From the IMG/VR virus record IMGVR_UViG_3300037847_000966, positions 1 through 25,385 of that record: a DNA stretch of 25,385 nucleotides. The stretch is one strand, 5' to 3'. Origin of the DNA: a virus. The notes under the pieces were generated by a model. The model made no database searches. It saw nothing but the letters and a program-made list of their open reading frames with translations, and was not told where the DNA came from. The translations under genes were made by a program, and so were the position numbers. Numbering within the stretch: position 1 is the stretch's first letter; every line of letters begins with the position of its first letter. Below, piece by piece: positions 6,251 to 24,701 of the stretch.

Positions 6251-6607
6251 ATGTCAGAAGTTATATACGCAAGTAGCGAACATAAACAAACGGTTGAGTT
6301 ATACATCAACACTTGTAAGCAATTTGCAAAAGATGTTTCTACAAAATCTAAATACAATAACTTTGAAGACGTTATTAAAACAATCAAAGAGTATCATAAC
6401 GGTTATGGAAAAGGAGTAAAAGAAAATAATTACTATGACTGGTTAATGATAATACCTATAAATTTATCAGTAGCTACAAATAGTTTTTTTGCTGGTTTAG
6501 AATCTAAAAATAACAGGGCAACTATAAGGGCTTACAAAGTTGTTTTAGAACAATTATTAATAGAAACCGTAGATAAAATTGAATTACTAGAACCAGAAAA
6601 TGAATAA
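6251..6607 (+). CDS. Hypothetical protein upstream of the sigma gene
   Basis: This 118-residue, helix-rich acidic protein has an uncommon hydrophobic patch in the middle (WLMIIPINLSVATNSFFAG) that is too polar at its edges for a confident membrane segment. It starts after a 23-base gap and its last 8 bases overlap the sigma-like gene, so the two are probably translated together. No cysteines and no known signature are seen. A partner or anti-sigma of the following protein is one reading of the overlap, but it is only a guess. Confidence 0.7.
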   Translation: MSEVIYASSEHKQTVELYINTCKQFAKDVSTKSKYNNFEDVIKTIKEYHNGYGKGVKENNYYDWLMIIPINLSVATNSFFAGLESKNNRATIRAYKVVLEQLLIETVDKIELLEPENE

Positions 6608-8577: not shown

Positions 8578-8593
8578 TCTATTATATATAAAG
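8578..8593 (+). promoter_or_regulatory. Recurrent AT-rich element, copy 1 (terminase block)
   Basis: TCTATTATATATAAAG lies 3 bases after the NinB-like stop and 41 bases before the small-terminase ATG. It shares TCTATTATATA with the copies at 10163 and 24209. The larger distance to the ATG makes a ribosome-binding role unlikely and a promoter core more likely. Of the five copies this is the least like the others at its 3' end. Confidence 0.4.
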
Positions 8594-8618
8594 ACTTGAT
8601 TAATCAAATTATTTCAAA

Positions 8619-8879
8619 ATGAGTACACACGGAGGAAAAAGAATAGGAGCTGGACGTAAGCCAAAAGCTGAAGAACAAAAGTTAATAGAAAAATTAACAC
8701 CCTTAAACGACTTAGCTTTAGAGTCATTAAAAAAAGGGTTAGAGAAAAAAGAACAATGGGCGGTCAAGTTATACTTTGAATATTTTTACGGAAGACCTCA
8801 ACAAAGAGTAGATGTAACTAGCAACGAAGAAACTTTAAATATGCCGCTAATAACATTTATAGATTCTGAAACTGAGTAA
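8619..8879 (+). CDS. Terminase small subunit-like protein
   Basis: This 86-residue protein starts with HGGKRIGAGRKPKAEEQKL, the basic hook common at the N-terminus of small terminase-like proteins in Bacteroidetes phages, followed by helices (LNDLALESLKKGLEKKEQWA, VKLYFEYFYGRPQQ) and an acidic tail. It would bind phage DNA and hand it to the large subunit for cutting and packaging. It is short for a complete TerS (usually 130-180 residues), so it may be a minimal DNA-binding version. Its end overlaps the large-subunit frame, which fits the pairing. Confidence 0.7.
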   Translation: MSTHGGKRIGAGRKPKAEEQKLIEKLTPLNDLALESLKKGLEKKEQWAVKLYFEYFYGRPQQRVDVTSNEETLNMPLITFIDSETE

Positions 8880-10068
8880 AAAATATAATCCGCTATTTGA
8901 TTCAGAAGCTAGATACTTTATAATAACTGGAGGTCGAGGGTCTGGTAAATCTTTTGCTGCAACTGTATTTTTGACTCTACTTACTATGACCGCAGGAATA
9001 CGAGTATTGTTTACTAGGTTTACTATGGTATCTGCGCACCTATCTATAATACCAGAATTTTTAGAAAAAATAACTTTATTAGGATATGACAATATATTTA
9101 GTATAAACAAAGCCGAAGTAATAAATACAAAAAACAATAGCGATATACTATTTAGGGGTATTAAAACTAGCGCTGGTAACCAGACCGCAAGTTTAAAATC
9201 CTTACAAGGTATAAGTTGTTGGGTGCTTGACGAAGCAGAAGAATTAATAGACGAAGACATTTTTGATACAATAGATTTAAGTATAAGAGAAAAGGGAGTA
9301 CAAAACAGAATTATACTAATATTAAATCCTGTTACAAAAGAACATTGGATATATAAAAGGTTTTTTGAAGACAAAGGAGTACAAGCTGGTTTTAATGGCG
9401 TTAGAGACAATATATGCTATATTCATAGTACATACCTTGACAACAAAGATAATCTGTCTAAGAGCTTCTTAGAGCGTGTAGAAGCTATAAAGCACAGGAA
9501 CTTTAAAAAGTATAAACATAAAATACTTGGTGGCTGGTTAGACAAAGCAGAGGGGGTTGTATTTGAGAATTGGTCAATAGGAGAATTTAATCCAGACGGA
9601 CTACAAACTAGTTGCGGTATGGACTTTGGATTTAGTGTTGACCCAGATAGCTTAGTAGAAGTAGCAATAGATAAAAAGAAAAAAATAATATATTTAAAAG
9701 AACACTTATATAAAAACGGATTAAAGTCTCATCAACTGGCAGAACTTATATTAGAGAAAGTAGGAAATAAATTAATTATAGGCGATAGCGCAGAGCCAAG
9801 ACTAATAGAAGACTTAAGACATTTAGGGGTAAATATAAAACCAGTAAAAAAAGGGACTATTGAAAGCGGTATAACCAGAATGTTAGATTATGATATAGTT
9901 ATAACAAAAGAGTGTATAAATTTAGCTAAAGAATTTAATAACTATATATATGCTGATAAGGGTTCTAAGTTATTTGTTGACGCTTACAATCACGGAATAG
10001 ATGCAGTTAGATATAATATAATTTATCATTTAGACAATCCGAATTTAGGTAAATATTATGTACAATAA
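8866..10068 (+). CDS. Terminase large subunit (PBSX/phage_term_2-like), non-AUG start
   Basis: The DNA-packaging motor: ATPase plus headful nuclease, acting at the portal. Walker A is ITGGRGSGKS (about 20-29) and Walker B is SCWVLDEAEELIDE. ILNPV follows as a coupling motif. Nuclease acidic residues lie in GMDFGFSVDPD, IIGDSAEPR and NHGIDAVRY. The first ATG in frame (8971) lies after Walker A and would destroy the ATPase. The frame opens after a TAG at 8860-8862; candidate starts are ATT 8863, CTG 8866 and CTG 8872. CTG 8866 gives MKLSKKYNPLF, the usual start of relatives, and 400 residues, a normal length. It overlaps the small-subunit stop by 14 bases, so coupled re-initiation is likely. 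Identity is firm; the exact start is not. Confidence 0.9.
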   Translation: MKLSKKYNPLFDSEARYFIITGGRGSGKSFAATVFLTLLTMTAGIRVLFTRFTMVSAHLSIIPEFLEKITLLGYDNIFSINKAEVINTKNNSDILFRGIKTSAGNQTASLKSLQGISCWVLDEAEELIDEDIFDTIDLSIREKGVQNRIILILNPVTKEHWIYKRFFEDKGVQAGFNGVRDNICYIHSTYLDNKDNLSKSFLERVEAIKHRNFKKYKHKILGGWLDKAEGVVFENWSIGEFNPDGLQTSCGMDFGFSVDPDSLVEVAIDKKKKIIYLKEHLYKNGLKSHQLAELILEKVGNKLIIGDSAEPRLIEDLRHLGVNIKPVKKGTIESGITRMLDYDIVITKECINLAKEFNNYIYADKGSKLFVDAYNHGIDAVRYNIIYHLDNPNLGKYYVQ

Positions 10069-10101
10069 AAGGGAAGCCCCGCACGTTCAAGCTCCCCTTT
10101 T
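10067..10101 (+). terminator. Hairpin terminator after the large terminase
   Basis: Arms AAAAGGGAAGC (10067-10077) and GCTCCCCTTTT (10091-10101) pair over 11 positions with a single A-C mismatch around a 13-base loop, ending in four T. It begins at the terminase stop codon. The T tract is short and the hairpin is symmetric (A tract on the 5' side), so it could act in both directions. It closes the terminase block before the tail block. Confidence 0.6.
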
Positions 10102-10160
10102 CAAATTAATTTACTAACTAAAACGCGGCAAATATAATACTTTAAACTAAATATCAACAA

Positions 10161-10177
10161 TTTCTATTATATAATAT
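10161..10177 (+). promoter_or_regulatory. Recurrent AT-rich element, copy 2 (tail module)
   Basis: TTTCTATTATATAATAT lies directly before the ATG at 10178 and is identical over 17 bases to the copy at 24207-24223. It contains the perfect 12-base palindrome TATTATATAATA and an E. coli-like TATAAT. It follows a terminator hairpin, so a new transcript should start here. If TATAAT is a -10 box, the start point would fall at or near the ATG and the mRNA would be nearly leaderless. It does not match the Bacteroidetes TAnnTTTG box. Confidence 0.5.
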
Positions 10178-10813
10178 ATGAAAGTAAAAATAAAAAAAGG
10201 TAAAAAAACAAAAACATACAATGTTGTTGAAAGCTGGGAAGAGGTGACACTTGAAAAATTCATGCAACTAAATATGAGTGAAATTGACACACAGTCAAAA
10301 GAAGCATTAGAAGTTATCGCAGTATTATCAGATTTACCAAAAAATATAATTAAAAAATTATCATTACGAGACGTAACAAATCTATTTGAAAGATTAGGAA
10401 AAATAGACATACAAGACGTTTTGAAGCATACAGTAATAATTGACAATGTAGAATATGGAATGCACCCAGATTTATCAGAAATAACTCTTGGTGAATATGC
10501 AGATTTAGAAACATTCATGGGTAATGATTTGCAAAAAAATTTACCAGAAATAATGGCAATACTATTTAGACCAATAACGGAAAAGGACGGTGATGTATAT
10601 ACAATAGAAGCCTATGATGGTAATATAAAGATACGAGCCGAAAAAATGAAGAAAATGTCAGCAGAGCAAGTACAACAAGTACTGGTTTTTTTTTGGACTT
10701 TCGTAAGGATATTTATAATGATTTTGCCGTTGTCTTTGGTGGAGGGGCAAAAGTTGAAGATGATGGAAAATTACCTGAGACCTTTGCAAAAAAGTGGGGA
10801 TGGTTTGGCGTAA
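10178..10813 (+). CDS. Tail assembly chaperone-like protein, zero-frame product
   Basis: This 211-residue reading has the features of the Bacteroidetes-phage tail chaperone-type protein up to about residue 172: ITLGEYADLETFM, MAILFRPITEKDGD, a helix ending VQQVLVFF. Just there a run of nine T (10686-10694) is crossed. The zero frame then adds 39 unconvincing hydrophobic/basic residues to a TAA at 10811-10813, while the -1 frame continues as a well-formed protein (10693-10956). Lambda gpG/gpGT and many siphophages make two products in this way, the long one binding the tape measure and the short one the tube. The zero-frame product would be the short form. It is the first gene of the tail block. 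Confidence 0.65.
   Translation: MKVKIKKGKKTKTYNVVESWEEVTLEKFMQLNMSEIDTQSKEALEVIAVLSDLPKNIIKKLSLRDVTNLFERLGKIDIQDVLKHTVIIDNVEYGMHPDLSEITLGEYADLETFMGNDLQKNLPEIMAILFRPITEKDGDVYTIEAYDGNIKIRAEKMKKMSAEQVQQVLVFFWTFVRIFIMILPLSLVEGQKLKMMENYLRPLQKSGDGLA
10687..10693 (+). other. Probable -1 frameshift site (T TTT TTT)
   Basis: Within the run of nine T at 10686-10694 the zero frame reads GTT TTT TTT TGG, giving the slippery heptamer T TTT TTT at 10687-10693. A -1 slip continues as TTG GAC TTT CGT and opens the 10693-10956 frame. A polymerase slip adding one base in the T run would have the same effect. A hairpin (TTTTGCC 10722-10728 with GGCAAAA 10746-10752) lies about 28 bases downstream, rather far to be a standard stimulator. 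A sequencing homopolymer error is the main alternative. Confidence 0.6.
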
Positions 10814-10956
10814 TGCATAGATTGTGTAATCAAGATATAAGTAAATTGGAGACAATTACTAAATTAAATTTATTAGAATGTTTAACATGGCTAACATACG
10901 AAACAGATTTAAATCAACAAAACAAAGTAAATTATGGTAGAAAACAAGTCGTATAA
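10693..10956 (+). CDS. Tail assembly chaperone C-terminal extension (-1 frame)
   Basis: The -1 frame continues from LDFRKDIYNDFAVVFGGG through LPETFAKKWGWFGVMHRL and LNLLECLTWLTYETDLNQQN to a TAA at 10954-10956. The KKWGW...L.WL.YE.D pattern recurs in chaperone-type proteins of Bacteroidetes phages, where it is continuous with the preceding domain. It has no ATG of its own before the conserved part and no leader, so it should be made as a fusion of about 259 residues (10178-10956) by -1 slippage at the T run. Independent initiation at TTG 10693 is possible but poorly supported. Its end overlaps the next gene by 23 bases. Confidence 0.65.
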   Translation: MDFRKDIYNDFAVVFGGGAKVEDDGKLPETFAKKWGWFGVMHRLCNQDISKLETITKLNLLECLTWLTYETDLNQQNKVNYGRKQVV

Positions 10957-11479
10957 TAATGTAACAAATTTTTTATGTAGATTGGGTGAATATCACGAAC
11001 AAATACATAGCGTATCTGTTGGTGATATATTTCAGATAAATTTACAAAAGATGCAAAAGCTGCCATTAATGCATATAAACCCTACAAACGTAACAACTGG
11101 CGATAGTTCTTTAACATATAATTTTCAAATATTTATTTGTGATTTAGCAGATAATGATATGGCTAGTCAGACAAAGCAGCAAAGTGAATTGACAAAATTA
11201 ATTAATCAAAAAAATAACGAACAAGAAATTTGGAATCAAACATTAGATATTGCTACTGATATTATTGGCATGTTAAGACATAGCTCAAGACAATCAATAG
11301 CAGGTACAAACGATATTAATTTTCCAAAATATTTTACAACTGGTCAATTTACAATAGAACCCTTTCAAGAAAGATTTGATAATTTATTATGCGGTTGGTC
11401 GTTTAGTGTCGGTATACAAGTTATAGATGATTTCCAAACTTGTAATATACCAGTAACAGATTTAGGCGCAGGGTACTAA
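10934..11479 (+). CDS. Tail terminator/completion-like structural protein
   Basis: This 181-residue protein follows a pattern I know from Bacteroidetes phages: a helical start (SYNNVTNFLCRLGEYHEQIH), VSVGDIFQINLQKMQKLPL, the strand LTYNFQIFICDLAD, a long helix (EIWNQTLDIATDIIGMLRH), and a closing beta part FERFDNLLCGWSFSVGIQV-like. The alternating strand/helix layout and size resemble phage tail terminator proteins that cap the tube, but the call rests on pattern and position next to the tail chaperone. It overlaps the preceding gene and ends in a TAATG junction with a mini-ORF. Confidence 0.55.
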   Translation: MVENKSYNNVTNFLCRLGEYHEQIHSVSVGDIFQINLQKMQKLPLMHINPTNVTTGDSSLTYNFQIFICDLADNDMASQTKQQSELTKLINQKNNEQEIWNQTLDIATDIIGMLRHSSRQSIAGTNDINFPKYFTTGQFTIEPFQERFDNLLCGWSFSVGIQVIDDFQTCNIPVTDLGAGY

Positions 11480-11544
11480 TGAAATTTAAAATAGGAAAAT
11501 ATAAAATAACAATAGGATTTTTTAAGATAACAATACATATATGA
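11479..11544 (+). CDS. 21-aa linking mini-ORF
   Basis: A 21-codon ORF fits exactly between two genes: its ATG lies in the TAATG after the tail-terminator-like gene, and its TGA overlaps the next ATG (ATGA at 11541-11544). The peptide (MKFKIGKYKITIGFF and on) has a repeated basic/hydrophobic pattern K-I-x-x-Y-K-I-T-I / F-F-K-I-T-I. The double coupling suggests that ribosomes read it, either for the peptide or simply to carry them across. No family is known. Confidence 0.4.
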   Translation: MKFKIGKYKITIGFFKITIHI

Positions 11545-11900
11545 ACTACGACGATTTATTAGAAAAATTAGAAGCTATTAGTATAAATTTAGAATCATAT
11601 ACTGATTATCCAGAATCAGCTACTAATAATGCTAAAAGAGCAATAAAGTATAAAAAAGAAAACGGAAGCTCGTGCGGAACTAAGGTTGGCTGGACTCGCG
11701 CTAATCAACTCGCAAACAGAAAGCCTATTAGCAGAGATACAATTGCGCGTATGGCTTCATTTAAAAGACACGAACAAAACTCAGATGTACCATACGACGA
11801 AGGTTGCGGCGGCATTATGTACGACGCTTGGGGTGGAAAAAGCGGTGTTAACTGGGCAATAAATAAATTAAAACAAATAGATAATAAAAACAAAAAATAA
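11541..11900 (+). CDS. Phage VGWTRANQLA-motif protein
   Basis: The C-terminal 85 residues of this 119-residue protein hold a compact conserved block: AIKYKKENGSSCGTKVGWTR, ANQLANRKPISRDTIARMAS, FKRHEQN, then DEGCGGIMYDAWGGKSGVNW. I know this block from many tailed phages, usually next to or fused with prohead protease or portal genes. Here it stands alone among tail genes. Two cysteines (in SSCGT and EGCGG) and many Trp/Gly suggest a small rigid fold. Its codon use (GCT, GCG, CGC present) is less AT-biased than its neighbours, so it may have come separately. The molecular role is not known to me. Confidence 0.65.
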   Translation: MNYDDLLEKLEAISINLESYTDYPESATNNAKRAIKYKKENGSSCGTKVGWTRANQLANRKPISRDTIARMASFKRHEQNSDVPYDEGCGGIMYDAWGGKSGVNWAINKLKQIDNKNKK

Positions 11901-11902
11901 TT

Positions 11903-12352
11903 ATGGCAGATTTAGTAACAACGATTAGCGAAAGTGTAACACTCAACGGTGCGTTACGTGGCTCTACAAATACTGTAACAACAACAGGAATTACAGATGT
12001 TATGGAACGTATATTGACTTGCGCACACTCAAACACAACAACAATAGCGGTATTTAATTCAACACCACACGGAGCGGCAGGTGCATTAGATGTTGAAAAC
12101 TGTAAGTATTTACGAATAACAAATTTAAGTACAGACCAAGACATAAAACTAGCAATAGTAACAACAAACACTAATTATCAGGTAACAGTACGCGCAGGGG
12201 GTTCGCATGTTTTATTTCAAGCAGAAGACCTAGCAATTGGTGAAACAGATACAACTCCTGCTTTTGGTACTTTAGAAGATGTTGTAACCGTACAGGTAAG
12301 ACCATCAGCATCAACTGATGTACAGGTAGAATTATTTGCAGGGCTAGTATAA
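11903..12352 (+). CDS. Small beta-rich virion protein
   Basis: This 149-residue Thr/Val/Ala-rich protein appears all-beta (VTLNGALRGSTNTVTTTG, TTIAVFNSTP, KYLRITNLSTDQDIKLAIV, YQVTVRAGGSHVLFQAEDL, VVTVQVRPSASTDVQV). Proteins that start MADL followed by such strands are common in marine phage genomes and are virion parts, but their exact place is unclear; a tube, decoration or collar protein are candidates. It has an A-rich leader and lies between the VGWTR protein and an HK97 gp10-like gene (TAATG at its end). Confidence 0.6.
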   Translation: MADLVTTISESVTLNGALRGSTNTVTTTGITDVMERILTCAHSNTTTIAVFNSTPHGAAGALDVENCKYLRITNLSTDQDIKLAIVTTNTNYQVTVRAGGSHVLFQAEDLAIGETDTTPAFGTLEDVVTVQVRPSASTDVQVELFAGLV

Positions 12353-12951
12353 TGGAAGAAGAAGAATACATACTTGAATTACAGACTTATTTTCAAGAAT
12401 TTGCAGACAAAGTAGTTAACCAAACAAAAGAGGCACTATATAATGCAAAAGGAGATAGCACAAGATTAGGTGATAGTATAAGGTCAGAGGTTGTGTATAA
12501 TGAAGCAGAGGGAAAAATGTCAATTATGTTTTATATGCTAAACTATGGGGCATACGTAAATCAAGGTGTATCAGGTAATGAAGCGGCGGCAAATCAAACA
12601 TATACAAATTGGAGGGGTGAAGTAGTTAGTTCTGATTTTGCATATTCTGATAAAATGCCACCTGTTGCAGTAATAGAAGAATGGGTTAAGAAAAAAGGAA
12701 TAAAAGGTAAAAAGTCTTTAAAGAAATATAGAAAAAATAAAAACAGTACAATAAAGGGTGCGGGTCAGTTTATAACAAGCAAGTCATTGGCTTTTGCAAT
12801 ATCTAAGTCAATACAAAAGAAGGGAATAAAAAGCACAAGTTTTTTTACAAAACCTTTTGGTAGTTTGTATTCAGAATTAAAAGAAGGCATTGCACCAATA
12901 TTAAAAAACAAAATACAAGATATGTATTTTACAACATTTACAAAATTTTAG
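12352..12951 (+). CDS. HK97 gp10-like tail/neck protein
   Basis: This 199-residue protein looks like the HK97 gp10/neck family: an N-terminal helix (LQTYFQEFADKVVNQTKEAL), a strand pair with VVYNEAEGKMSIMFYMLNYG, AYVNQGVSGNE, PPVAVIEEWVKKKGI, and a basic stretch ending with a helix bundle (SKSLAFAISKSIQKKGIKST, FFTKPFGSLYSELKEG). Gp10-like proteins sit at the head-tail interface and help the tail attach. The motif Y(G)AYVNQGVSG with a later P-V-x-x-I-x-x-W is the usual hallmark. The end of the protein is Lys-rich. Confidence 0.7.
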   Translation: MEEEEYILELQTYFQEFADKVVNQTKEALYNAKGDSTRLGDSIRSEVVYNEAEGKMSIMFYMLNYGAYVNQGVSGNEAAANQTYTNWRGEVVSSDFAYSDKMPPVAVIEEWVKKKGIKGKKSLKKYRKNKNSTIKGAGQFITSKSLAFAISKSIQKKGIKSTSFFTKPFGSLYSELKEGIAPILKNKIQDMYFTTFTKF

Positions 12952-12954
12952 AAT

Positions 12955-14364
12955 ATGGCAAATTCAATTATAGAACAACAACCTGCAAGAACAGTATTAC
13001 CTGTTGGACAAGATGTGATATTTGTAGTTTCAAATGATGATGCAGTAGGGTTTCAAACAAGGGTTAAATTTGTTGCAGAGGTTCATATAAAAAATGGTGC
13101 AATATCATTAAGTAATACTTCATCAAGAATAGGTGTTTTTAAAACAACGCCAAATAATGCAGGGGTGGGTATTTTTAATTTTAGAAATATTGTAGAAAAC
13201 TATGTTAATGCACAACATATAGCAGGTTTTAAAAGCACATACAAAGGCGTGTCTTCTGATGGTAAAAACCACCCTATTCATTTAATAGACAAATTAAGTT
13301 TGCAGGATGATATATTACGATATTTTGCAGTACAATTTAAAGTTGAATATTTGGGTGCTGATGTAACTAAACCAAATGAGGTTAATATTGCAGATGGAAC
13401 TGCGGCAAATAGTGTGCAATTCAAAATAACAAACGCATATTTAAAACACACAGATGTATTAACATTTTCAACAGACCCTAATAATCCTAATGGTTTTGGT
13501 TATGATATAACTAAATTTAAGCCAAGTGATACATCTAAGCAATTTTTAACTAATTTACCGACTACATTATATGCAAACATAAATGACTATGGAACAGTAG
13601 GTATTTTACAAACTGAAAACGATATATGGGATAATGCACGTAAAGTTAAATTTACTTATTACGAACCAGACGGAACTACTACAACAGAAACATATAGTAA
13701 AGGCGCAAGTACTGGTGCGTTTTTTGGTTGGTCGACAGATGGTAGAAAACAAATACTTTTATTAGGCATGTACCCTGCTAATTTAAGAAATTGGTCTAGC
13801 ACGTTTCCTGCAAGTACAATAGAAGGCGGTTATTACACAGTACAATTATTAGACAATAGCAATACACCAACATCTAAATTATATACAATAAATGTAAATT
13901 GTCCAGATGAAAAGCAATTTGAAAGCATTAGATTATGTTGGTTAAATCAATGGGGTGTTTGGGATTATTATACATTCAATAAAAAATCAACCACAAAAAT
14001 AAATAGTCAAGAAACAACATACCAACAACTAGAAGGTACATGGAACGAAAGGGTTTATAGCATAGGTGGTTTTAGAGGTGGCAAAAAAACATTTAGAAGA
14101 AACAGTACAGAAAGTATAGCTATTAATACAGATTTTGTAACAGAAGACTACAATACAGTATTTCAAGAATTAATAAATAGTCCAGAAGTTTTTATGTTAA
14201 AAGGGTTTCAAACAGATGTTGCAGATAGCGTTTTAAATCAATACGTTATACCCGTAAGATTAACAACAAAAGACTTTACAACAAAAACTATTAGTAATGA
14301 TAAATTAATACAATATAGCTTTAATATAGAAAAAAGTTTAACATTAAGAACACAAAGCGTGTAA
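12955..14364 (+). CDS. Large tail structural protein, baseplate/distal-tail type
   Basis: This 469-residue protein is mostly beta with no membrane or catalytic signature: Ig-like start (ARTVLPVGQDVIFVVSNDD), NFRNIVENYVNAQHIAGF, a central region around QFKVEYLGADV, Trp-rich segments (RLCWLNQWGVWDYYTFNKKS), and a C-terminal domain with DYNTVFQELINSPEVFMLKG. The WLNQWGVWDYYTF segment recurs in large tail proteins of Bacteroidetes phages, where it belongs to a baseplate or distal-tail ring. It is followed by the hub-like gene with TAATG, so the two probably assemble together. The exact ring position is unknown. Confidence 0.6.
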   Translation: MANSIIEQQPARTVLPVGQDVIFVVSNDDAVGFQTRVKFVAEVHIKNGAISLSNTSSRIGVFKTTPNNAGVGIFNFRNIVENYVNAQHIAGFKSTYKGVSSDGKNHPIHLIDKLSLQDDILRYFAVQFKVEYLGADVTKPNEVNIADGTAANSVQFKITNAYLKHTDVLTFSTDPNNPNGFGYDITKFKPSDTSKQFLTNLPTTLYANINDYGTVGILQTENDIWDNARKVKFTYYEPDGTTTTETYSKGASTGAFFGWSTDGRKQILLLGMYPANLRNWSSTFPASTIEGGYYTVQLLDNSNTPTSKLYTINVNCPDEKQFESIRLCWLNQWGVWDYYTFNKKSTTKINSQETTYQQLEGTWNERVYSIGGFRGGKKTFRRNSTESIAINTDFVTEDYNTVFQELINSPEVFMLKGFQTDVADSVLNQYVIPVRLTTKDFTTKTISNDKLIQYSFNIEKSLTLRTQSV

Positions 14365-17120: not shown

Positions 17121-17974
17121 TGTCAGAAATACCATACATAAAAGATTTTGAAATAAAACCGAATGCAATAAGTGCTGACGGCATAGTTACATTTACAGAT
17201 GGAACTAATAATGTAACACCTAACCAATTACAATGTGAAAGGTATGGTTATACATACGATAATACAACTCGCACTTGTAGAGCATTTTTATATAAAAGAG
17301 AAATAAATGTTGTAAATCAATTTGCAAGTAATAATGTGCAAGGTGATGACAACACAGTAGACAATGGTTCTAATAACACTTATGTTATGGGTGAAAAAAA
17401 CCAAATACAAACAGGTAGCAGAAATAACATAGTTGTAGGAACTAATAATGTAATGAATGCCAAAATAAAAAATAGCGCAATGTTTGGTATTGCAGGAAAT
17501 GGTGTTATAGATGGTGCTATGATTTTTGGCGGTAATTCATTAACAGACAGATTAGGCACTAGACAAACAATAACATTAATGTATGGTTGTCAAACGACTA
17601 ACAATACGACTACTGATAGTTTTGTAAATAATACAGAATTAAAATATTTTCAACCAGAGAACAATAGGGTTTATTATTTTCAATCAGAAACATTAGCAGT
17701 TCGAGTTGGTGGTTCTAGTGGTTCTGGTTCAGTTGGAGATTTTAAAGCATGGGTAGAACGTGGTGTTGTAGTTGCTGATGGTACAGGAAATTTAAGTATA
17801 GATAGAAGTAGAACAAGTCCTGCAAGTAGTGGTTCGGTTAGTGGTTGGTCGCCAATTAATGCAGTTAGCGCACCAAATTTTAGACAAACAGTAAAGGGGG
17901 CTACTGATATGACAATAGAATGGGTTAGCACAATAAGATTTATGCAAATATGGACAGGAGTTACAATTCCTTAA
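17120..17974 (+). CDS. Tail-tip adhesin with Asn-rich beta-helix repeats
   Basis: This 284-residue protein has a leader of about 60 residues, then residues 66-140 rich in NN, NT and NNV repeats at fairly regular spacing (NNVQGDDNTVDNGSNNTYVM, NIVVGTNNVM). This is the pattern of a left-handed beta roll as in YadA-type head repeats. The C-terminal 120 residues form a Gly/Ser-rich beta domain (GGSSGSGSVGDFKAWVERG, WSTIRFMQIWTG-like end), a likely receptor-binding head. It starts at TAATG after the hub gene and precedes the tape measure, so it is likely a tip fibre or host-recognition protein. A trimeric state is likely by analogy. Confidence 0.6.
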   Translation: MSEIPYIKDFEIKPNAISADGIVTFTDGTNNVTPNQLQCERYGYTYDNTTRTCRAFLYKREINVVNQFASNNVQGDDNTVDNGSNNTYVMGEKNQIQTGSRNNIVVGTNNVMNAKIKNSAMFGIAGNGVIDGAMIFGGNSLTDRLGTRQTITLMYGCQTTNNTTTDSFVNNTELKYFQPENNRVYYFQSETLAVRVGGSSGSGSVGDFKAWVERGVVVADGTGNLSIDRSRTSPASSGSVSGWSPINAVSAPNFRQTVKGATDMTIEWVSTIRFMQIWTGVTIP

Positions 17975-17985
17975 AATAAAAAATT

Positions 17986-19959
17986 ATGGCAGAAGAAATA
18001 TTAGAATTAAAAATTGATGCAGATGTATCTGGAGCGAAACAAGAGGTTTCAGAATTAAAAGATGAATTAAAAGCAACTAAAGAAGAGGTAAAAGAATTAA
18101 ATGCCAGTAATAAAGCACTAAACGAAAGCAACGAAAGTTTAGCAAAAAGTGTATTAGATATTGCACAGAATTATACAGGCATGGGCGGTCAAATAAGGCG
18201 TGTACGTGGTCTTATTGGTAAATTAATACCTACATTTAAAAATCTCTTTAAAACAATAAAATTAGGTGTTGCGTCTACTGGAATAGGTGTTTTAGTGATA
18301 GCTTTAGGTTCTATTGTAACGGCTATGGCTAGCACCACAAAAGGCGGTAAGGCGGTAAAAGCTATAATGAATGGTATTGGTGAGGTTGTAAACTTTTTAA
18401 TCAAACCATTGCAAATAGCAGGTGACGCTCTTTTAGGGTTGTTCGGCGTAGATGATGCTCCTGCGGTAGATGTAGTTGCAGACATGAAAAGTGAAATAGA
18501 AAGTTTAAATCAGGCTTTAGGAGATATACAATTACAAAGAATTAAAAACAAACAAACTAATAGAGAAAATCAAAAAATAGTTGACGACACTACTAAATCA
18601 GAAGAAGAAAGATTAGCAGCATTAAAAGAAAATTATGAATTAAATAAAAAATTAAATGCAGAGGAACTGGCAAATGTAAAAGTTCAAGTTTGGAAACAAG
18701 GAGAGGTTGCAAGATTGGCAAAAAGTGCTTACGATTGGCACGTACAACAAGGGGCATCACAAGAAACGCTAAATGCTTTAAAACAAGCACAAATTACAGA
18801 AGAAAATACCTTGCTGAATTTAAGAAAACAAATGGCAAATTTAACAGATGCTCAGTTTATAGAAGAAACAAACTATGAGAATGCAATAACTCAAGTAAAG
18901 TCTTTTAATATAGATAATGAAAAAGACAAAGAGTTAGAATTAGCAGCTATTAGAAAAAAAGCACGTGAAGATAGAATAGCAGGTGAAAAGAAAGTTAATG
19001 ATATTATTAATAAATTAACAGAAGAATTAGCAATTAGTGCATTAAAAACTGATGAAGAAAAGGAGTTGAAAAAACTAGAATTTCAAAATAAAAAAGCAAT
19101 AGAAGATATTGAAAATTCAAAGGCTGACAAAAAAACAAAAGATGCAGCTTTATTATTATTGGATGAACAGTATAAAGAAAAACAGGCTGAAATAGTTAAA
19201 AAATATGATGACGAAGAACAAGAAAAAAGAGATGCAGAGTCAGAACAACTTGAAAAAATAAGAAACGAAAATTTAATTGCTTTAGAGGAAGATGAAAACG
19301 AACAGGCTAGAATGAAGCTTGCTATACAAAAAGCCGCAGACATAAAAGCAATAGAAGACTTGGAAAACAGAAAGGAATTGGAGTTGGAAATTGACGAAAA
19401 ATATAAAAGACTCGAAGCAGAAATAGACAAGAAAGCAAAAAAAGAACAAGAAGAAAGAGATAAGGAGGCACATGATGCTAAAATGGGTATGGCTATGGAT
19501 GGTATGAATTTAATACAAGAAATAGCAAATTTTGAAGCAGACCAAGCCGTTGCAAAAGATGAAGAAATAGAAAGGTCACAAACAAGAGGTGCTAAAATAG
19601 CAAAAGCAGTTGCATTAGCACAAGCGGCAATATCAGGTACAGAAGGTGTTATAAATACTTTTAAAAGCGCAGCAGACAGTCCTTTGGCGAGTGTAATACC
19701 CGGCTATCAATTTATACAAGCAGGATTAGCAGCAGGTTTTGCCGCACAAAATATTAGAAAAATAGCGGCAGGTGAACCACCAAGTGATACAGGCGGAACG
19801 TCTGGCGTAGATACAACACCAGCACCAGCTATGATGGGAGGGGCATTTACATTAGGTGAAGCGGCAGCTCCAGAACCAGTCCGTGCTTTTGTTGTGACTG
19901 ACGAAATGACCTCGAGTCAAGCACAATTAGCAAATATTAGGCGAAGAGCCACAATTTAA
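17986..19959 (+). CDS. Tail tape measure protein
   Basis: At 657 residues this is a tape-measure type protein: an N-terminal coiled coil (VSGAKQEVSELKDELKATKE), one hydrophobic stretch at 94-116 (GVASTGIGVLVIALGSIVTA), a very long charged coiled coil (about 160-520, with NEQARMKLAIQKAADIKAIE and many Glu/Lys heptads), then an Ala-rich hydrophobic end (AKAVALAQAAISGTEGVINT). It sets tail length by stretching inside the tube. With the common rule of about 1.5 angstrom per residue, 657 residues give a tail near 100 nm, so a siphovirus. It lies after the hub and adhesin genes, while in most siphophages it precedes them. Confidence 0.82.
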   Translation: MAEEILELKIDADVSGAKQEVSELKDELKATKEEVKELNASNKALNESNESLAKSVLDIAQNYTGMGGQIRRVRGLIGKLIPTFKNLFKTIKLGVASTGIGVLVIALGSIVTAMASTTKGGKAVKAIMNGIGEVVNFLIKPLQIAGDALLGLFGVDDAPAVDVVADMKSEIESLNQALGDIQLQRIKNKQTNRENQKIVDDTTKSEEERLAALKENYELNKKLNAEELANVKVQVWKQGEVARLAKSAYDWHVQQGASQETLNALKQAQITEENTLLNLRKQMANLTDAQFIEETNYENAITQVKSFNIDNEKDKELELAAIRKKAREDRIAGEKKVNDIINKLTEELAISALKTDEEKELKKLEFQNKKAIEDIENSKADKKTKDAALLLLDEQYKEKQAEIVKKYDDEEQEKRDAESEQLEKIRNENLIALEEDENEQARMKLAIQKAADIKAIEDLENRKELELEIDEKYKRLEAEIDKKAKKEQEERDKEAHDAKMGMAMDGMNLIQEIANFEADQAVAKDEEIERSQTRGAKIAKAVALAQAAISGTEGVINTFKSAADSPLASVIPGYQFIQAGLAAGFAAQNIRKIAAGEPPSDTGGTSGVDTTPAPAMMGGAFTLGEAAAPEPVRAFVVTDEMTSSQAQLANIRRRATI

Positions 19960-19998
19960 AAATCAAATATATTAACTTAAAATCTATTTAATAATATG
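19957..19998 (+). promoter_or_regulatory. Recurrent AT-rich element, copy 3 (capsid module), with upstream repeat
   Basis: From the tape-measure stop codon, TAAAAATCAAATA followed by TCTATTTAATAATATG (19983-19998, ending at the ATG) fills the short gap. The core differs from TCTATTATATAATATG (24209-24224) at two positions only. The same upstream 13 bases and the same core are also found at 21629-21670. This element marks the exact border of the tail and capsid modules. Confidence 0.5.
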
Positions 19999-20706
19999 CC
20001 TTGTAAAAAATGTAAAGACGGAAAATATAAGCACGGAGAAACTGGAGAATGTAAATACGATTCTAAAGCAGAGTGCGAAGAAGCTAATAAAGACTATTAC
20101 GAGAATCTAAAAACAACTCGTATAGTAGAATTAATTATTCAAGATGATTCAGAAGAACTTGCTATTGACGCTATTTCTCTAGTAAACAGTCCAGCAATAG
20201 AACAAGATTTTGTTTATTTTGGAAAAGAAAAAAATAATCTTACTTTTGCTAAAGTCGACGAAGAAAAAAGGATGTTGGTTAGTCCAGCGCTTATTCCTAA
20301 CAAGCAAATTTTCAGATACGACCCCAATACGGATAGTGAGTACTACGTATATTTTAGCCCTGAGACTGTCAGAAAAGCTAGTGAGTTGTACTTAAAACAT
20401 AACAACCACCATAAAGCTACATACGAACACCAAGACCGTGTAAGCGGCGTTTTAACGGTTGAATCTTGGGTAAAAGAAGGTGATATGGATAAGTCTAAAT
20501 TATATGGTTACGACCTACCAAACGGGACGTGGTTTGTAAAAATGAAAATAACTAATGACGACCTTTGGTCTAAGATTAAGGACGGAGAATTAAAGGGGTT
20601 AAGTATTGAGGGTTATTTTGCTGACCGTTTCGAGGCTATGCAGCATAAAAAACATTCAGACGAAGAAGTATTAAAAGCTTTATTAGAAATTATAAATAAA
20701 AAGTAA
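19996..20706 (+). CDS. Prohead serine protease, XkdF/S78_2-like, with N-terminal zinc ribbon
   Basis: This 236-residue protein would cut scaffold and capsid precursors during head maturation. The protease core (about 40-210) shows the XkdF-type pattern: AIDAISLVNSPAIEQDF, TYEHQDRVSGVLTVESWV with the likely catalytic His145, GYDLPNGTWFVKMKITNDD, and GELKGLSIEGYF with the likely Ser203. The first 30 residues add four cysteines (C3, C6, C19, C27 in CKKC...GECKYDSKAEC), a small zinc-ribbon or disulfide knot. It heads the capsid block, two bases before the next gene. Catalytic roles are inferred from the motif, not shown. Confidence 0.8.
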   Translation: MPCKKCKDGKYKHGETGECKYDSKAECEEANKDYYENLKTTRIVELIIQDDSEELAIDAISLVNSPAIEQDFVYFGKEKNNLTFAKVDEEKRMLVSPALIPNKQIFRYDPNTDSEYYVYFSPETVRKASELYLKHNNHHKATYEHQDRVSGVLTVESWVKEGDMDKSKLYGYDLPNGTWFVKMKITNDDLWSKIKDGELKGLSIEGYFADRFEAMQHKKHSDEEVLKALLEIINKK

Positions 20707-20707
20707 T

Positions 20708-21160
20708 ATGAGCAAAAAAGAAAAAATACTAGCAAAATTAAGTGAACAAAGAAAAGGACTTAAAAAAGTAAACTTATCTATTATGAGCGATTTAAAGGCT
20801 GCTCTTGAAAATATGAGGTCTTACGATATAGAGTATGATTATGACAAAGCCTTTACAGAGTACGAATATGCTTTAAATTTAATGGAACAAGCAAGACAAG
20901 CGGCAAATGCTTATGTAGAGTCTTACTCAAAATTTGAAGAAAATGTATACGAACATTGGGACGCGTATACTGAAGCTAGCACTAAATTTGGAGAATTAGA
21001 GTTGCAATTAGATTATTTAGGAATAGAACCAAGTAGCGAAGTTGAGTCTTATAGAGACGAAATAGTAGAAGGTGAAAGACAAGGGCAAGAAGCTTTTGGC
21101 AGAACTCAAAGCGATTTTGGTAAACATAACGATTTAGTAGATATAAGCGATTTTAACTAA
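20708..21160 (+). CDS. Helical capsid-block protein A
   Basis: This 150-residue acidic, helical protein has a long coiled-coil-like N-terminal half (KLSEQRKGLKKVNLSIMSDL, YDKAFTEYEYALNLMEQARQ), then LDYLGIEPSSEVESYRDEI and a charged tail. It starts with TAATATG after the protease and lies before the scaffold. It looks like a tandem relative of the next gene: both share a helix, then a (Y/E)xGI/VxP segment, then a Tyr/Glu-rich helix. A minor scaffold or head-internal protein is likely from position. Confidence 0.65.
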   Translation: MSKKEKILAKLSEQRKGLKKVNLSIMSDLKAALENMRSYDIEYDYDKAFTEYEYALNLMEQARQAANAYVESYSKFEENVYEHWDAYTEASTKFGELELQLDYLGIEPSSEVESYRDEIVEGERQGQEAFGRTQSDFGKHNDLVDISDFN

Positions 21161-21172
21161 AAAATAAAAACA

Positions 21173-21631
21173 ATGACTAATAAAAGTAAATTCTTTGCAG
21201 AATTAAAAAACGAAAACAATAAGAAAAAATTTAACGTAGAAAAAAAAGACTTATCTAAAGTGCAAAAAATATCTTTGGGTTTAATTGATAATTTTGCTTA
21301 CGGAGATGTACAATCTTTAGGAGACGAGATGCGTAGGTTAGCATATTCTACTGAAGAATGGTACGACGAAAATTTTGATAAATTTATAGAAGCTAGAGGT
21401 ATGTTAAGAGATGTGTATTTTAATAATAGTGAAGCGTTTATTACAGAAGCAGACGTAGCTGGAGATAGAGAAATATTAGACACTTTAAAATCAACGGCTG
21501 ACGAAATAGGAGTACCAGTAGAAGACCTTTACCCAGATTATGAAAGACACTTAAGTATATTGGACGACTTAGACTATTACGAACAAAGATTTGATGAGCA
21601 AAAAAGAGAATTAGAACAATACGGATTTTAA
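21173..21631 (+). CDS. Helical capsid-block protein B
   Basis: This 152-residue protein is similar in size, acidity and layout to the preceding one (152 against 150 residues). It has KVQKISLGLIDNFAYGDVQS, FDKFIEARGMLRDVYF, then DEIGVPVEDLYPDYERHL and a helical end (DYYEQRFDEQKRELEQYGF). The GVPVEDLYPDY part lines up with GIEPSSEVESY in protein A, which suggests an old tandem duplication. It has an A-rich leader and the gap after it holds a copy of the recurrent element. The function is unknown; it probably has a structural role in the head. Confidence 0.65.
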   Translation: MTNKSKFFAELKNENNKKKFNVEKKDLSKVQKISLGLIDNFAYGDVQSLGDEMRRLAYSTEEWYDENFDKFIEARGMLRDVYFNNSEAFITEADVAGDREILDTLKSTADEIGVPVEDLYPDYERHLSILDDLDYYEQRFDEQKRELEQYGF

Positions 21632-21670
21632 AAATCAAATAAACTTAATATAAATCTATTTAATAAAAAA
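21629..21670 (+). promoter_or_regulatory. Recurrent AT-rich element, copy 4 (scaffold), with upstream repeat
   Basis: Starting at the stop codon of protein B, TAAAAATCAAATA and then AAATCTATTTAATAA repeat the sequence at 19957-19994 with a slightly altered middle. The core TCTATTTAATAA (21655-21666) is followed by A6 and the scaffold ATG 23 bases after the core begins. The changed distance to the ATG again argues against a ribosome-binding site. Confidence 0.45.
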
Positions 21671-21677
21671 AGAACCT

Positions 21678-22523
21678 ATGGACATCAAAGAACAAATCAT
21701 TAAAGCTCTAGGATTAAGCAAAGCCTTAAAATTAGAGTGGCAAGCAAAGTCTGAGGATGGTACTATATTTGTTTCAACGGCTGAAGAACTAGCTACTGGA
21801 GTAGATATTTCTGTATTAACTGAAGACGGAACGACTATTCCTTTACCAATCGGTACTTATAAAACGGCTGAAGGCGTTACTTTTCGAGTAGAAGAAGAGG
21901 GCGTTGTAGCTGAAGTTATGGAGACTGAAACTGAAGAAGTAGTTACAGAAGAAGCTATGGAAGAAGAAAGTCCGGCTGAAAAAGCTGACTGGGCTAAATC
22001 TTACGAAGAGCTAAAAGACAAAGTAGAAAACTTAGAAGACGCTATCGCTGATATTAAAGCTAAAATTGGCGGAGATTCTGAAGAAGTTGAAATGGCTGAC
22101 GAAGAAGCAACTGAAGAGGTTGTAACTGAAGTAGTAGAAACAGTAGAAGAAGCGGTTGAAGAAATAGCGGCTGCTATTGACGACGCTACTCCAGCAGAGG
22201 TAACTCCAGAATTAGCAGCTAAAGCGGCTGAGGTTGCAGTAGAAGTAATGCAAGAAAAAGCTGAAGAAGTAGCTGAAGACGCAGAATCTACTGATATGAA
22301 GAAGAAAAAAGATAAAATGAAGGATAAAAAGAAAAAAAGAGAATATAGCAAAATGTCTCGTTTAGAAAAACAAAACAAAGAGCTAAGAGAAAAGCTAAGA
22401 ACTAAACCGGCTGATAGCCCTCTAAGCGTAAATAAATTTTCTAATTCTAGACCTTCTTTATCAAGAAAAGAATACAATAAACTATCAAGAAGAGAGAAAT
22501 TTCTTTACGATTTAAATAAATAA
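21678..22523 (+). CDS. Capsid scaffolding protein
   Basis: This 281-residue protein has a typical scaffold make-up: an N-terminal beta-rich part (LKLEWQAKSEDGTIFVSTAE), then a very acidic Ala/Glu/Val region (residues about 70-200, EVMETETEEVVTEEAMEEES, EEVAEDAEST), a coiled coil (SYEELKDKVENLEDAIADIK), and a strongly basic end (KKKKDKMKDKKKKREYSK, ...LSRREKFLYDLNK). Scaffolds hold capsid proteins in place during prohead growth and are removed by the protease; the basic end usually touches the capsid inner wall. It lies directly before the capsid gene. There is no separate domain of known enzymatic function. Confidence 0.8.
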   Translation: MDIKEQIIKALGLSKALKLEWQAKSEDGTIFVSTAEELATGVDISVLTEDGTTIPLPIGTYKTAEGVTFRVEEEGVVAEVMETETEEVVTEEAMEEESPAEKADWAKSYEELKDKVENLEDAIADIKAKIGGDSEEVEMADEEATEEVVTEVVETVEEAVEEIAAAIDDATPAEVTPELAAKAAEVAVEVMQEKAEEVAEDAESTDMKKKKDKMKDKKKKREYSKMSRLEKQNKELREKLRTKPADSPLSVNKFSNSRPSLSRKEYNKLSRREKFLYDLNK

Positions 22524-22549
22524 ATAATAACAATTAAAAACAAAAAATT

Positions 22550-23476
22550 ATGGCATTTAATGTAACGAGTAATTTTGAGGGAAAAGCGGCTGGATTCTAT
22601 ATAAGTGCGGCACTTAACCAAGCAAAATCACTAGACTATTTAACAATGATTGAGAATGTTAAATTCAAATCTAACATTCAAACTATGGCTGGTTCAAATG
22701 TAGTTAGAGACGCTACTTGCGACTTTACAGACCACGGAACTCTTGCTTTGACTGAAAAGCAGCTTACAGTTGAGAACTTCCAAATAAACCTTGATTTATG
22801 TAAAAAAACGCTTTTAAGTAGCTGGGAGGCTTTACAAATGAGAGCTGGAGCTGGAGCGCCACCACCACCATCATTTGAGGACTATGTAATTTCTTACATG
22901 GGTGAAATTATAGCTGACGCTATGGAGACTTCTATATGGACTGGTACTAATGGTACTAACGGTCAATTTGAAGGTTTCTTATCTGCGGCTGGACTTTTAT
23001 TACCAGCTCAAGATGCAACTGTTGTACAATCTTCAGCTTCTGGAGCTTATACGGCTGCAAATATTATAGCTAACTTACAAACTTTAACTGCTGATATGGC
23101 TGCTAATATAGCACCTTTATTAACAAAGGAGGACCTTCATATTTATATGAACCCTAAGACTTATGCTTTCTATATTTCAGCAGTATCTACATTAGGATAT
23201 GTAAACGCTTACAATATGAATGGAGACTATGAGCCAGTTTTTGAAGGCTACAAAATAGCCGTTTGTCCTGCTTTACCAGACAACCAAATGGTTGCGGCTG
23301 CTAAGTCAAATCTTTACTTTGGGACAGATTTACTTTCGGATGGGTTAGGAACATCTCCATCAATTAGAATTTTAGATATGGCAAATTTAGATGCCTCAGA
23401 TAATATGAGGTTGGTTTGCAGATGGGCGGCTGGAATCCAGTCTGGAGTTGGAGCTGATATCGTTAGACAATCGTAA
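22550..23476 (+). CDS. Major capsid protein (HK97 fold)
   Basis: This 308-residue protein is preceded by scaffold and protease and has an HK97-type layout. The N-arm starts MAFNVTSNFEGKAAGF; an alpha/beta region with VENFQINLDLCKKTLLSSWE follows, then the spine-helix region FEDYVISYMGEIIADAMETS and IWTGTNGTNGQFEGFLSAAG, and an A-domain part YEPVFEGYKIAVCPALPDNQ with LYFGTDLLSDG. It forms the icosahedral shell. A small run GAGAPPPP (residues 100-107) is unusual and lies just before the spine region. The start has the typical A-rich Bacteroidetes leader (AAAAACAAAAAATTATG). Confidence 0.85.
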   Translation: MAFNVTSNFEGKAAGFYISAALNQAKSLDYLTMIENVKFKSNIQTMAGSNVVRDATCDFTDHGTLALTEKQLTVENFQINLDLCKKTLLSSWEALQMRAGAGAPPPPSFEDYVISYMGEIIADAMETSIWTGTNGTNGQFEGFLSAAGLLLPAQDATVVQSSASGAYTAANIIANLQTLTADMAANIAPLLTKEDLHIYMNPKTYAFYISAVSTLGYVNAYNMNGDYEPVFEGYKIAVCPALPDNQMVAAAKSNLYFGTDLLSDGLGTSPSIRILDMANLDASDNMRLVCRWAAGIQSGVGADIVRQS

Positions 23477-23490
23477 TAAATTAATTAAAT

Positions 23491-23516
23491 AAGCGAGGGC
23501 GTAAAAACCCTTGCTT
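23491..23516 (+). terminator. Hairpin after the major capsid gene
   Basis: AAGCGAGGG (23491-23499) pairs with CCCTTGCTT (23508-23516) over nine positions with one G-T wobble and an eight-base loop, followed by TTTATAA. The T tract is short, so it may be a weak terminator or an RNA-stabilising 3' end. Such a site would raise capsid mRNA over the downstream gene. Confidence 0.55.
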
Positions 23517-23540
23517 TTATAACCTTAAAAATAAAAAAAT

Positions 23541-24128
23541 ATGGCTTGTACGGCACTTAGTAAAGGAAGAGGTCTTGACTGCTCTAGAATCGCTGGAGGG
23601 GTTAAAAATATTTATTTTTCGGTTTACTCAGACTTTGGTAGCACGGACTGGTCTTACGACGGTTCTAATCCGCAAGAAATAGACGCTATTGACTGGAATA
23701 GTAAAAGTATTTACAAGTATGTAATGCCTCTTGGTGTTGCGTCTGTTACAGATACAATTACTGGTTCTACGGAAAATGGTACTATTTTTTATACACCTAC
23801 GGTAAACATAATGTTAAATAAATTAACTAAAGAAGACCAAAACGAAATTAGACTTTTAGGACAGACTAAAGTAAGAATATTAGTAGAGCTTAATGCAAAA
23901 TTAGCTTCAGGACATGATGTTATTTTAGCTTGTGGTTTTGAAAACGGAATGGATTTAAACACAGGTACTATGGATAGTGGGGCGGCTTTTGGAGACAGAA
24001 ACGGTTACACTCTAACCTTCACAGGAATGGAGTCAAGACCAATGGCGTTTTTAGAAGACTATACTACTAGTATTTTTGATAACTCAGGATTTACAAACAA
24101 AGGAACACCATTTGTTGTTTCAGTGTAA
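23541..24128 (+). CDS. Tail-tube-like protein
   Basis: This 195-residue protein begins MACTALSKGRGLDCSRIAGG and has the signature VKNIYFSVYSDFG, ENGTIFYTPTVNIMLNKLTK, DQNEIRLLGQTKVRILVELN, GAAFGDRNGYTLTFTGMESR. This pattern is frequent in Bacteroidetes phages near the capsid gene and looks like the beta-barrel tail-tube fold (gpV-like) or a head-tail ring. C13 and the first C are part of the conserved N-terminus. It is separated from the capsid gene by the hairpin at 23491 and followed by a strong terminator at 24157, so it can be regulated on its own. Confidence 0.65.
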   Translation: MACTALSKGRGLDCSRIAGGVKNIYFSVYSDFGSTDWSYDGSNPQEIDAIDWNSKSIYKYVMPLGVASVTDTITGSTENGTIFYTPTVNIMLNKLTKEDQNEIRLLGQTKVRILVELNAKLASGHDVILACGFENGMDLNTGTMDSGAAFGDRNGYTLTFTGMESRPMAFLEDYTTSIFDNSGFTNKGTPFVVSV

Positions 24129-24156
24129 TTTATAAGTAGTTTCATATATTAAAAAG

Positions 24157-24183
24157 GAGTAACTAATGTTACTCTTTTTTTTT
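24157..24183 (+). terminator. Strong rho-independent terminator
   Basis: GAGTAAC (24157-24163) and GTTACTC (24168-24174) form a perfect 7-bp stem with loop TAAT, followed by nine T (24175-24183). An A run before the stem extends it with A-T pairs. This is the best terminator in the window and ends the capsid transcript. Confidence 0.88.
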
Positions 24184-24206
24184 ATTTACCAAATAAATTT
24201 ATACTT

Positions 24207-24223
24207 TTTCTATTATATAATAT
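24207..24223 (+). promoter_or_regulatory. Recurrent AT-rich element, copy 5 (after terminator)
   Basis: TTTCTATTATATAATAT is identical over 17 bases to 10161-10177, and it lies after a strong terminator and directly before an ATG (24222-24224, overlapping it by 2 bases). A new transcript start is needed here, which supports a promoter. The mRNA could be nearly leaderless. Confidence 0.55.
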
Positions 24224-24701
24224 GATACAAGCGGTAACAGAAACGGATTTAACTACATATTTACAAACTGAAGACAACAGAATAGATACAAGTGTTAGTT
24301 CAGATAAGATTAGATACTTAGTAAAGTTTACCAACGATATGGATAAATCAATACAATACGCTTACTCTAATGTACATTTAGTTTACGACAGGTATACTAA
24401 ATTTAATTTTACTTATAACGCTACTAAAGATGTATACGAAGGCAAGGTAAATTTTAAACCATCTGGATATTATCAATACGAGGTTTATGAAGTTAGTTGG
24501 TCAGGAGCGGTTGCTATAAGCGCAGGTAATGCGCCAGTAAATGAAAATGATGTATTACCAGTAGGACCTACTCACGGAGTCGTACAAGGGCTTGTAACTA
24601 AAGGAAAAATGTATGTCGCAGATAAATCTGGAACGGCTCAAGTACAATACAATCAGCATACAGAAACAGAGGGAACAAATTATATATATTACGGAAATTA
24701 A
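24222..24701 (+). CDS. Virion-associated beta-rich protein
   Basis: This 159-residue protein begins with an acidic/polar part (VTETDLTTYLQTEDNRID), then beta strands in an Ig-like order (SDKIRYLVKFTNDMDKSI, AYSNVHLVYDRYTKFNF, EGKVNFKPSGYYQYEVYEVS), then VLPVGPTHGVVQGLVTKGKM and YVADKSGTAQVQYNQHT. I know similar proteins from marine flavobacterial phages but with no function. It is the first gene after the terminator/element pair, ahead of small and LamG-type surface proteins, so a decoration, collar or fibre-base protein is plausible. Confidence 0.6.
   Translation: MIQAVTETDLTTYLQTEDNRIDTSVSSDKIRYLVKFTNDMDKSIQYAYSNVHLVYDRYTKFNFTYNATKDVYEGKVNFKPSGYYQYEVYEVSWSGAVAISAGNAPVNENDVLPVGPTHGVVQGLVTKGKMYVADKSGTAQVQYNQHTETEGTNYIYYGN

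Follow-up and report, generated by a model that had tools for sequence, protein, structure and literature searches.

A bipartite element as the probable late promoter of a Bacteroidetes siphophage, with a phage-encoded ECF-like sigma factor as its candidate reader

Five copies of a bipartite sequence element, each at the head of a late gene block of a Bacteroidetes phage, are probably late promoters read by an ECF-like sigma factor that the phage itself encodes. The stretch of DNA analyzed (herein the window) comprises 25,385 nucleotides, bases 1 through 25385 of the 28,148-base virus record IMGVR_UViG_3300037847_000966. Its two ends share 100 bases, with a single mismatch between them, and the genome accordingly maps as a circle of ∼28.05 kb; the best explanation takes it for a circularly mapping Bacteroidetes siphophage of roughly 28 kb. 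The main genes of the window all share the + strand. The stretch at ∼2.3 through 8.6 kb holds genes of early type (DnaA-like, replication, NinG-like, and sigma-like), followed by the terminase genes (8.6 through 10.1 kb), the tail genes (10.2 through 20 kb), and then protease, putative scaffold, major capsid, and probable portal genes, the portal and scaffold being named from position and length.

The element and its five copies

On its + strand the window contains five exact matches to TCTATTWWATA and no more, at the five sites where an earlier note on this DNA had placed its copies; in 200 dinucleotide shuffles the string averages 0.12 matches and never exceeds 2. All five copies lie between genes, in a window whose intergenic share is just 4.3%. 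Counted from the T of TCTATT (8578, 10163, 19983, 21655, and 24209), the ATG follows at 41, 15, 13, 23, and 13 nt, respectively. Three of the positions given earlier were exact, and the other two (10161 and 24207) counted two extra T's; the 17 identical bases reported for these copies (10161 through 10177 and 24207 through 24223) are indeed present, as is a stop codon or terminator before each copy. A weight matrix of 40 columns, trained on relatives only, ranks the five sites first (scores of 42, 40, 31, 23, and 16); the next + strand site in the window scores 1.5 and the best − strand site 2.7.

Alignment of 266 distinct contexts on TCTATT reveals that the element has an upstream half, (T/C)AAA(C/A)(T)AAA, followed by the core TTCTATTATATAnTA. 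The upstream block at −19 to −12 reads CAAATAAA, or TAAACTAAA at the tail gene, with near-invariant A's at −18/−17; information is low between and outside the halves. The logo is free of gaps, and the spacing between the halves is fixed, their starts lying ∼19 nt apart. Two halves at fixed spacing is the layout of a site for a two-domain sigma factor. The earlier description of a TCTATT-TATAAT form thus captured the element but missed its upstream half, and TATAAT is probably not a −10 hexamer in the usual register; TATAnTA as a −10 at the usual spacing was set aside, as RNA would then start after the ATG in many copies. The loose core TCTATTTATAAT with three mismatches is near background (194 found versus 148 expected), so the name "TATAAT-like" understates the conserved part. 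A scan with the sigma-70 consensus was uninformative (101 promoter-like sites versus 89 in shuffles).

The five candidate promoters, P1 through P5, are all on the + strand. P1 (8559 through 8591) precedes the small terminase gene and is composed of the upstream element CAAACGAA (8559 through 8566) and the core TCTATTATATA (8578 through 8588), with a predicted RNA start at ∼8591. P2 (10144 through 10176) precedes a Phage_TAC_7-like tail gene and combines AAACTAAA (10144 through 10151) with the same core (10163 through 10173) and a predicted start at ∼10176; an inverted repeat at ∼10070 through 10105 was spotted by eye only. P3 (19964 through 19996), before the prohead protease gene, has the upstream element CAAATATA and the core TCTATTTAATA (19983 through 19993), and its predicted RNA start is the A of the ATG (19996). 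P4 (21636 through 21668), before the genes for the putative scaffold and the major capsid protein, has CAAATAAA upstream and the same core as P3 (21655 through 21665). P5 (24190 through 24222) shares its upstream element with P4 and its core with P1 (24209 through 24219), and would start RNA at the A of the ATG of the 24222 gene, which it serves together with the genes downstream. An intrinsic terminator computed at 24151 through 24180 (+ strand) ends the preceding transcript directly upstream of P5. An inverted repeat followed by T-rich sequence, between the major capsid gene and the next (23489 through 23525), may be a partial terminator and brings no new promoter.

The leader between P1 and the small terminase gene also contains a 12-bp perfect palindrome, TTGATTAATCAA (8596 through 8607, + strand). 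It is present in 50 of 85 distinct small-terminase upstream regions, and 66 of its 73 occurrences in relatives lie 16 through 19 nt from where the core element starts. The palindrome is a candidate operator, or may serve as a packaging site.

The late copies do not resemble promoters of the Bacteroidetes primary sigma factor (TTTG and TAnnTTTG boxes): as the earlier note had held for the host box, none of the TAnnTTTG positions listed for the window falls at the five late elements. A host-type promoter, TTTG-N20-TACTTTTG (2284 through 2315, + strand), heads the early gene block, with TAnnTTTG at 2308; this box is found in 49 of 51 homologous early leaders, versus 12 expected from shuffles. The combination of a host-type early box and a distinct late element fits a two-step program, with the host sigma factor acting first and the phage sigma factor later.

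Conservation in related phages and the position of start codons

Searches with three proteins (capsid, sigma, and large terminase) yielded ∼240 related loci (2.2 Mb), which are partly redundant and not phylogenetically independent. Across these loci the weight matrix places the element before 65 of 65, 98 of 99, 50 of 74, 17 of 19, and 56 of 57 orthologs of the first genes behind P1 through P5, respectively, and before none of 1,954 other gene starts. Exact core matches were used for training irrespective of their position, so the zero at other starts is not built in. About a third of the protease upstream regions are without the element, some of them because the starts are miscalled; no element lies upstream of the major capsid gene. 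The first 84 loci contain 130 forward and 20 reverse copies, with ∼4 forward in shuffles. The position-weight search that the earlier note had proposed thus agrees with its reading both in the window and in relatives. In many relatives a ParB-N/N6-methyltransferase gene is inserted before the small terminase gene (terS) and carries its own copy of the element (for example L188:4391-5566 and L099:4316-5479). The element therefore travels with unrelated first genes, which argues for a portable promoter and not an inherited flank.

The distance from the element to the ATG ranges from 13 to 51 nt, with a pronounced accumulation at the lower bound. Of 269 distinct cases in which an ATG follows at no more than 60 nt, 82 have it at position 13 from the T of TCTATT and 165 at positions 13 through 16; the only ATGs nearer than 13 are three likely miscalled starts, for which a conserved downstream Met fits better. 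T12 (78%) and A13 (92%) are conserved even where the ATG is farther off, which makes position 13 the likely RNA start. Diversity at third codon positions is highest from codon 2, so the ATGs look real. An ATG at positions 13 through 16 would leave the mRNA with no leader or one of 1 to 3 nt, and because start codons accumulate there and are practically never nearer, the first genes of most late blocks probably have leaderless or nearly leaderless messages. On this comparative evidence, with start codons abutting the element, the earlier proposal of nearly leaderless transcripts holds up well. Wide use of leaderless messages would be unusual for such hosts, given that only 5.5% of mRNAs are leaderless in Flavobacterium psychrophilum (PMC9723704); for 87% of the transcripts predicted in F. 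johnsoniae, the leader exceeds 10 nt (PMC6847099).

A phage sigma-like protein and a second lineage

The candidate reader of P1 through P5 is a protein of 201 aa encoded at 6600 through 7205 (+ strand). Its sequence is weakly sigma-like: it has a PHROG sigma factor match at 1.4e-4, and 43 of its 74 homologs give weak Sigma70_r4 matches, while the window protein itself falls below the Pfam Sigma70_r4 cut-off. A PDB profile search with it returned no sigma factor and nothing relevant, and a single-sequence search found no match in named phages. The AlphaFold model (mean pLDDT 79) is confident at ∼1 through 90 and 128 through 199, joined by a disordered linker (91 through 126), and this predicted fold matches sigma factors. 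The Foldseek matches of the model are mostly sigma factors, the best being Mycobacterium tuberculosis SigL (E = 2e-3), and none reaches E = 1e-3. Region 4 of the model superposes on region 4 of Escherichia coli sigmaE bound to −35 DNA with 1.6 Å over 69 residues; whole-length fits have a large rmsd because the arrangement of the domains is not fixed. The model shares the makeup of ECF sigma factors, with regions 2 and 4 joined by a linker and no further region, and the best matches are ECF structures; since the window protein is below the Pfam cut-off and fails the curated family cut-offs by sequence, we term it ECF-like and do not file it as a member of the ECF group.

Viral contigs contain 161 relatives of this protein. 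The neighbors of the gene are the same in 117 of 120 loci; in the remaining three no left neighbor was called. No element was found in 91 distinct regions upstream of the gene. Against bacterial genomes, the sigma alignment found two loci only, one of them a phage contig in a Euryarchaeota MAG. That 29-kb contig (PBGL02000003.1) is a phage of this group, with a 62% identical sigma protein and two late promoter copies; its placement in the MAG looks like a binning error.

The nearest named phages are Nonlabens phages P12024S and P12024L (Inhavirus), for which 61% (terminase) and 29% (capsid) are shared. Judging from this pair and from the host-type early promoter, the host of the window phage would be a flavobacterium; the phage group is abundant in the sea. 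The pair encodes a Sigma70_r2 protein a short distance ahead of the terminase genes, a place equivalent to that of the window gene. It scores above the Pfam Sigma70_r2 cut-off and has N-terminal homology to the window protein (hhalign E = 9e-5), the two sigma groups being alignable over 52 N-terminal residues only. A model of the P12024-type protein was of low confidence (mean pLDDT 62) and was left out.

The P12024 phages thus resemble the window phage in their homologous terminase and capsid, in a sigma-like gene before the terminase genes, and in a bipartite element at late gene starts, but the element is a different one and the sigma protein has diverged. Their late genes are preceded by TAAAACAAA-N13-CGTTAATA (AACAAA-N13-CGTTA), which abuts the ATG and occurs six times on the + strand of P12024S and never on the − strand (25 and 0 over eight loci). 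The window-type element is nearly absent from P12024-type loci (one match). Around more distant sigma relatives, AACAAA-N-CGTT-N-ATG gives 24 forward and 2 reverse-complement matches, with 7 in a reversed control. Element and sigma gene therefore diverge together while the geometry is kept. None of the open-access papers searched describes a promoter role for the P12024S/L element.

Mechanism, alternatives, and known systems

In the mechanism that we propose, early genes, including the sigma gene, would be transcribed from the host-type TTTG/TAnnTTTG promoter. The sigma factor would thereby come to activate, at a later stage, the terminase, tail, and head blocks and the one from 24222 onward. 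Host RNA polymerase carrying the phage ECF-like sigma factor (6600 through 7205) would read P1 through P5, with region 4 binding the upstream half, region 2 melting the downstream half, and RNA starting ∼13 nt after the T of TCTATT. We infer that this protein reads the element, where RNA would start exactly, and when; the conserved sigma-like gene supports the use of a phage sigma factor that had been raised earlier.

The main competing reading keeps the element as a late promoter or operator and makes the 6600 through 7205 protein a RinA/ArpU-like activator that recruits a host sigma holoenzyme. Late activators of that type sit upstream of the small terminase gene in Gram-positive siphophages, where the sigma-like gene is also found; they also use a sigma region 4 fold, and among the PHROG families one of transcriptional regulators (phrog_36) matches the protein weakly. 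We nevertheless regard this as unlikely, because the model has an N-terminal helical domain in addition to region 4 and aligns lengthwise to two-domain sigma factors, the P12024 homolog passes the Pfam Sigma70_r2 cut-off, and the element has no host −7 box. Reading of the late promoters by a host alternative (ECF) sigma factor is less probable still. In its favor, F. psychrophilum has a host ECF motif with a CGT box (PMC9723704), and CGTTA forms part of the P12024-type element. Against it, a change of element from one phage lineage to another goes along with a change in the phage's own sigma-like gene, a gene that the whole group retains.

A translation signal upstream of the ribosome start would account for an element that abuts many start codons; it is hard to reconcile with the variable distance to the ATG, the absence of the element before the major capsid gene and the other starts, the upstream partner at fixed spacing, and the position of the element after a terminator at P5, and we consider it very improbable. 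The same variable distance, the fixed partner, and the placement before late first genes bear out the earlier judgment that the element is a promoter and not a ribosome site. Chance similarity in AT-rich gaps, for which the near-background count of the loosest form might speak, is practically eliminated: shuffle counts, strand bias, placement before orthologous late genes with none at other starts, and the co-diverged element of another lineage all refute it.

Read as promoters for a phage sigma factor, the five elements are best understood, by analogy, as working like those of phages 7-11 and phiEco32, and not as host primary-sigma promoters or single elements of the T4 type. As in that strategy, the element lies before several late units and not elsewhere, and the sigma-like protein is encoded outside the late units. 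The phiEco32-like Salmonella phage 7-11 has late promoters (GTAAtg-16-aCTA) read by its sigma factor gp47 (PMC8948821); like the window phage, it has bipartite promoters at several late blocks, a phage-encoded sigma factor, and early genes on the host sigma factor, but its element is another one and leaderless starts are unmentioned in that paper. The middle/late promoters of phiEco32 (tAATGTAtA) are read by gp36, and RNA starts 6 through 9 bp from the promoter element in both phages (PMC8948821). A phage sigma factor with lineage-specific promoters is common to phiEco32 and the window phage; phiEco32 has a single element and a sigma factor without recognizable region 4, whereas the window phage has two halves and a region 4. 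Motif SM6 of F. psychrophilum marks host promoters of the ECF type, whose −10 box is CGT, in a regulon that includes type IX secretion genes (PMC9723704); its box is like that of the P12024-type element, whereas the window element has CTATT there and is a phage element, not part of a host regulon.

Late promoters of phage T4 (TATAAATA) are AT-rich and are read with the phage sigma factor gp55. The window element shares the AT-rich late sequence and, probably, a phage sigma factor as reader, but T4 has no −35 element, whereas the upstream half at −19 to −12 is conserved here.

For Bacteroidetes phages, late gene control is essentially undescribed in the open-access literature searched, which yielded no report of a phage-sigma late promoter strategy in them. 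The finding supplies a promoter model that can be applied predictively to hundreds of uncultured genomes, with each promoter variant tied to its own sigma gene, and P12024S/L form a cultured pair suited to testing it. We lean towards a broader view, in which late promoters and start codons are fused across a large Bacteroidetes phage family and the phage sigma factor, co-evolving with these promoters, produces leaderless late mRNAs in hosts that rarely use such messages; the late switch would then alter how translation begins as well as which promoters are used. If the late messages are leaderless, these phages would be a natural setting in which to study leaderless translation, in a phylum without Shine-Dalgarno sequences.

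Two further observations concern the terminase genes. Over 8866 through 8974 of the window, the large terminase has no in-frame ATG or GTG start before its Walker A motif. Among 121 relatives with the upstream stop in view, a CTG is present in all 121 (CTG only in 81, with TTG in addition in 40), in a conserved CTGAaaCTGA context that overlaps the small terminase gene at its end. Translation may start at CTG or involve some other recoding step. Lastly, the terminase matches of Shigella phage Henu10 (OQ791282.1) and Riemerella phage ON933637.1 are identical in score and coordinates, and the host label of the Henu10 record may be wrong.
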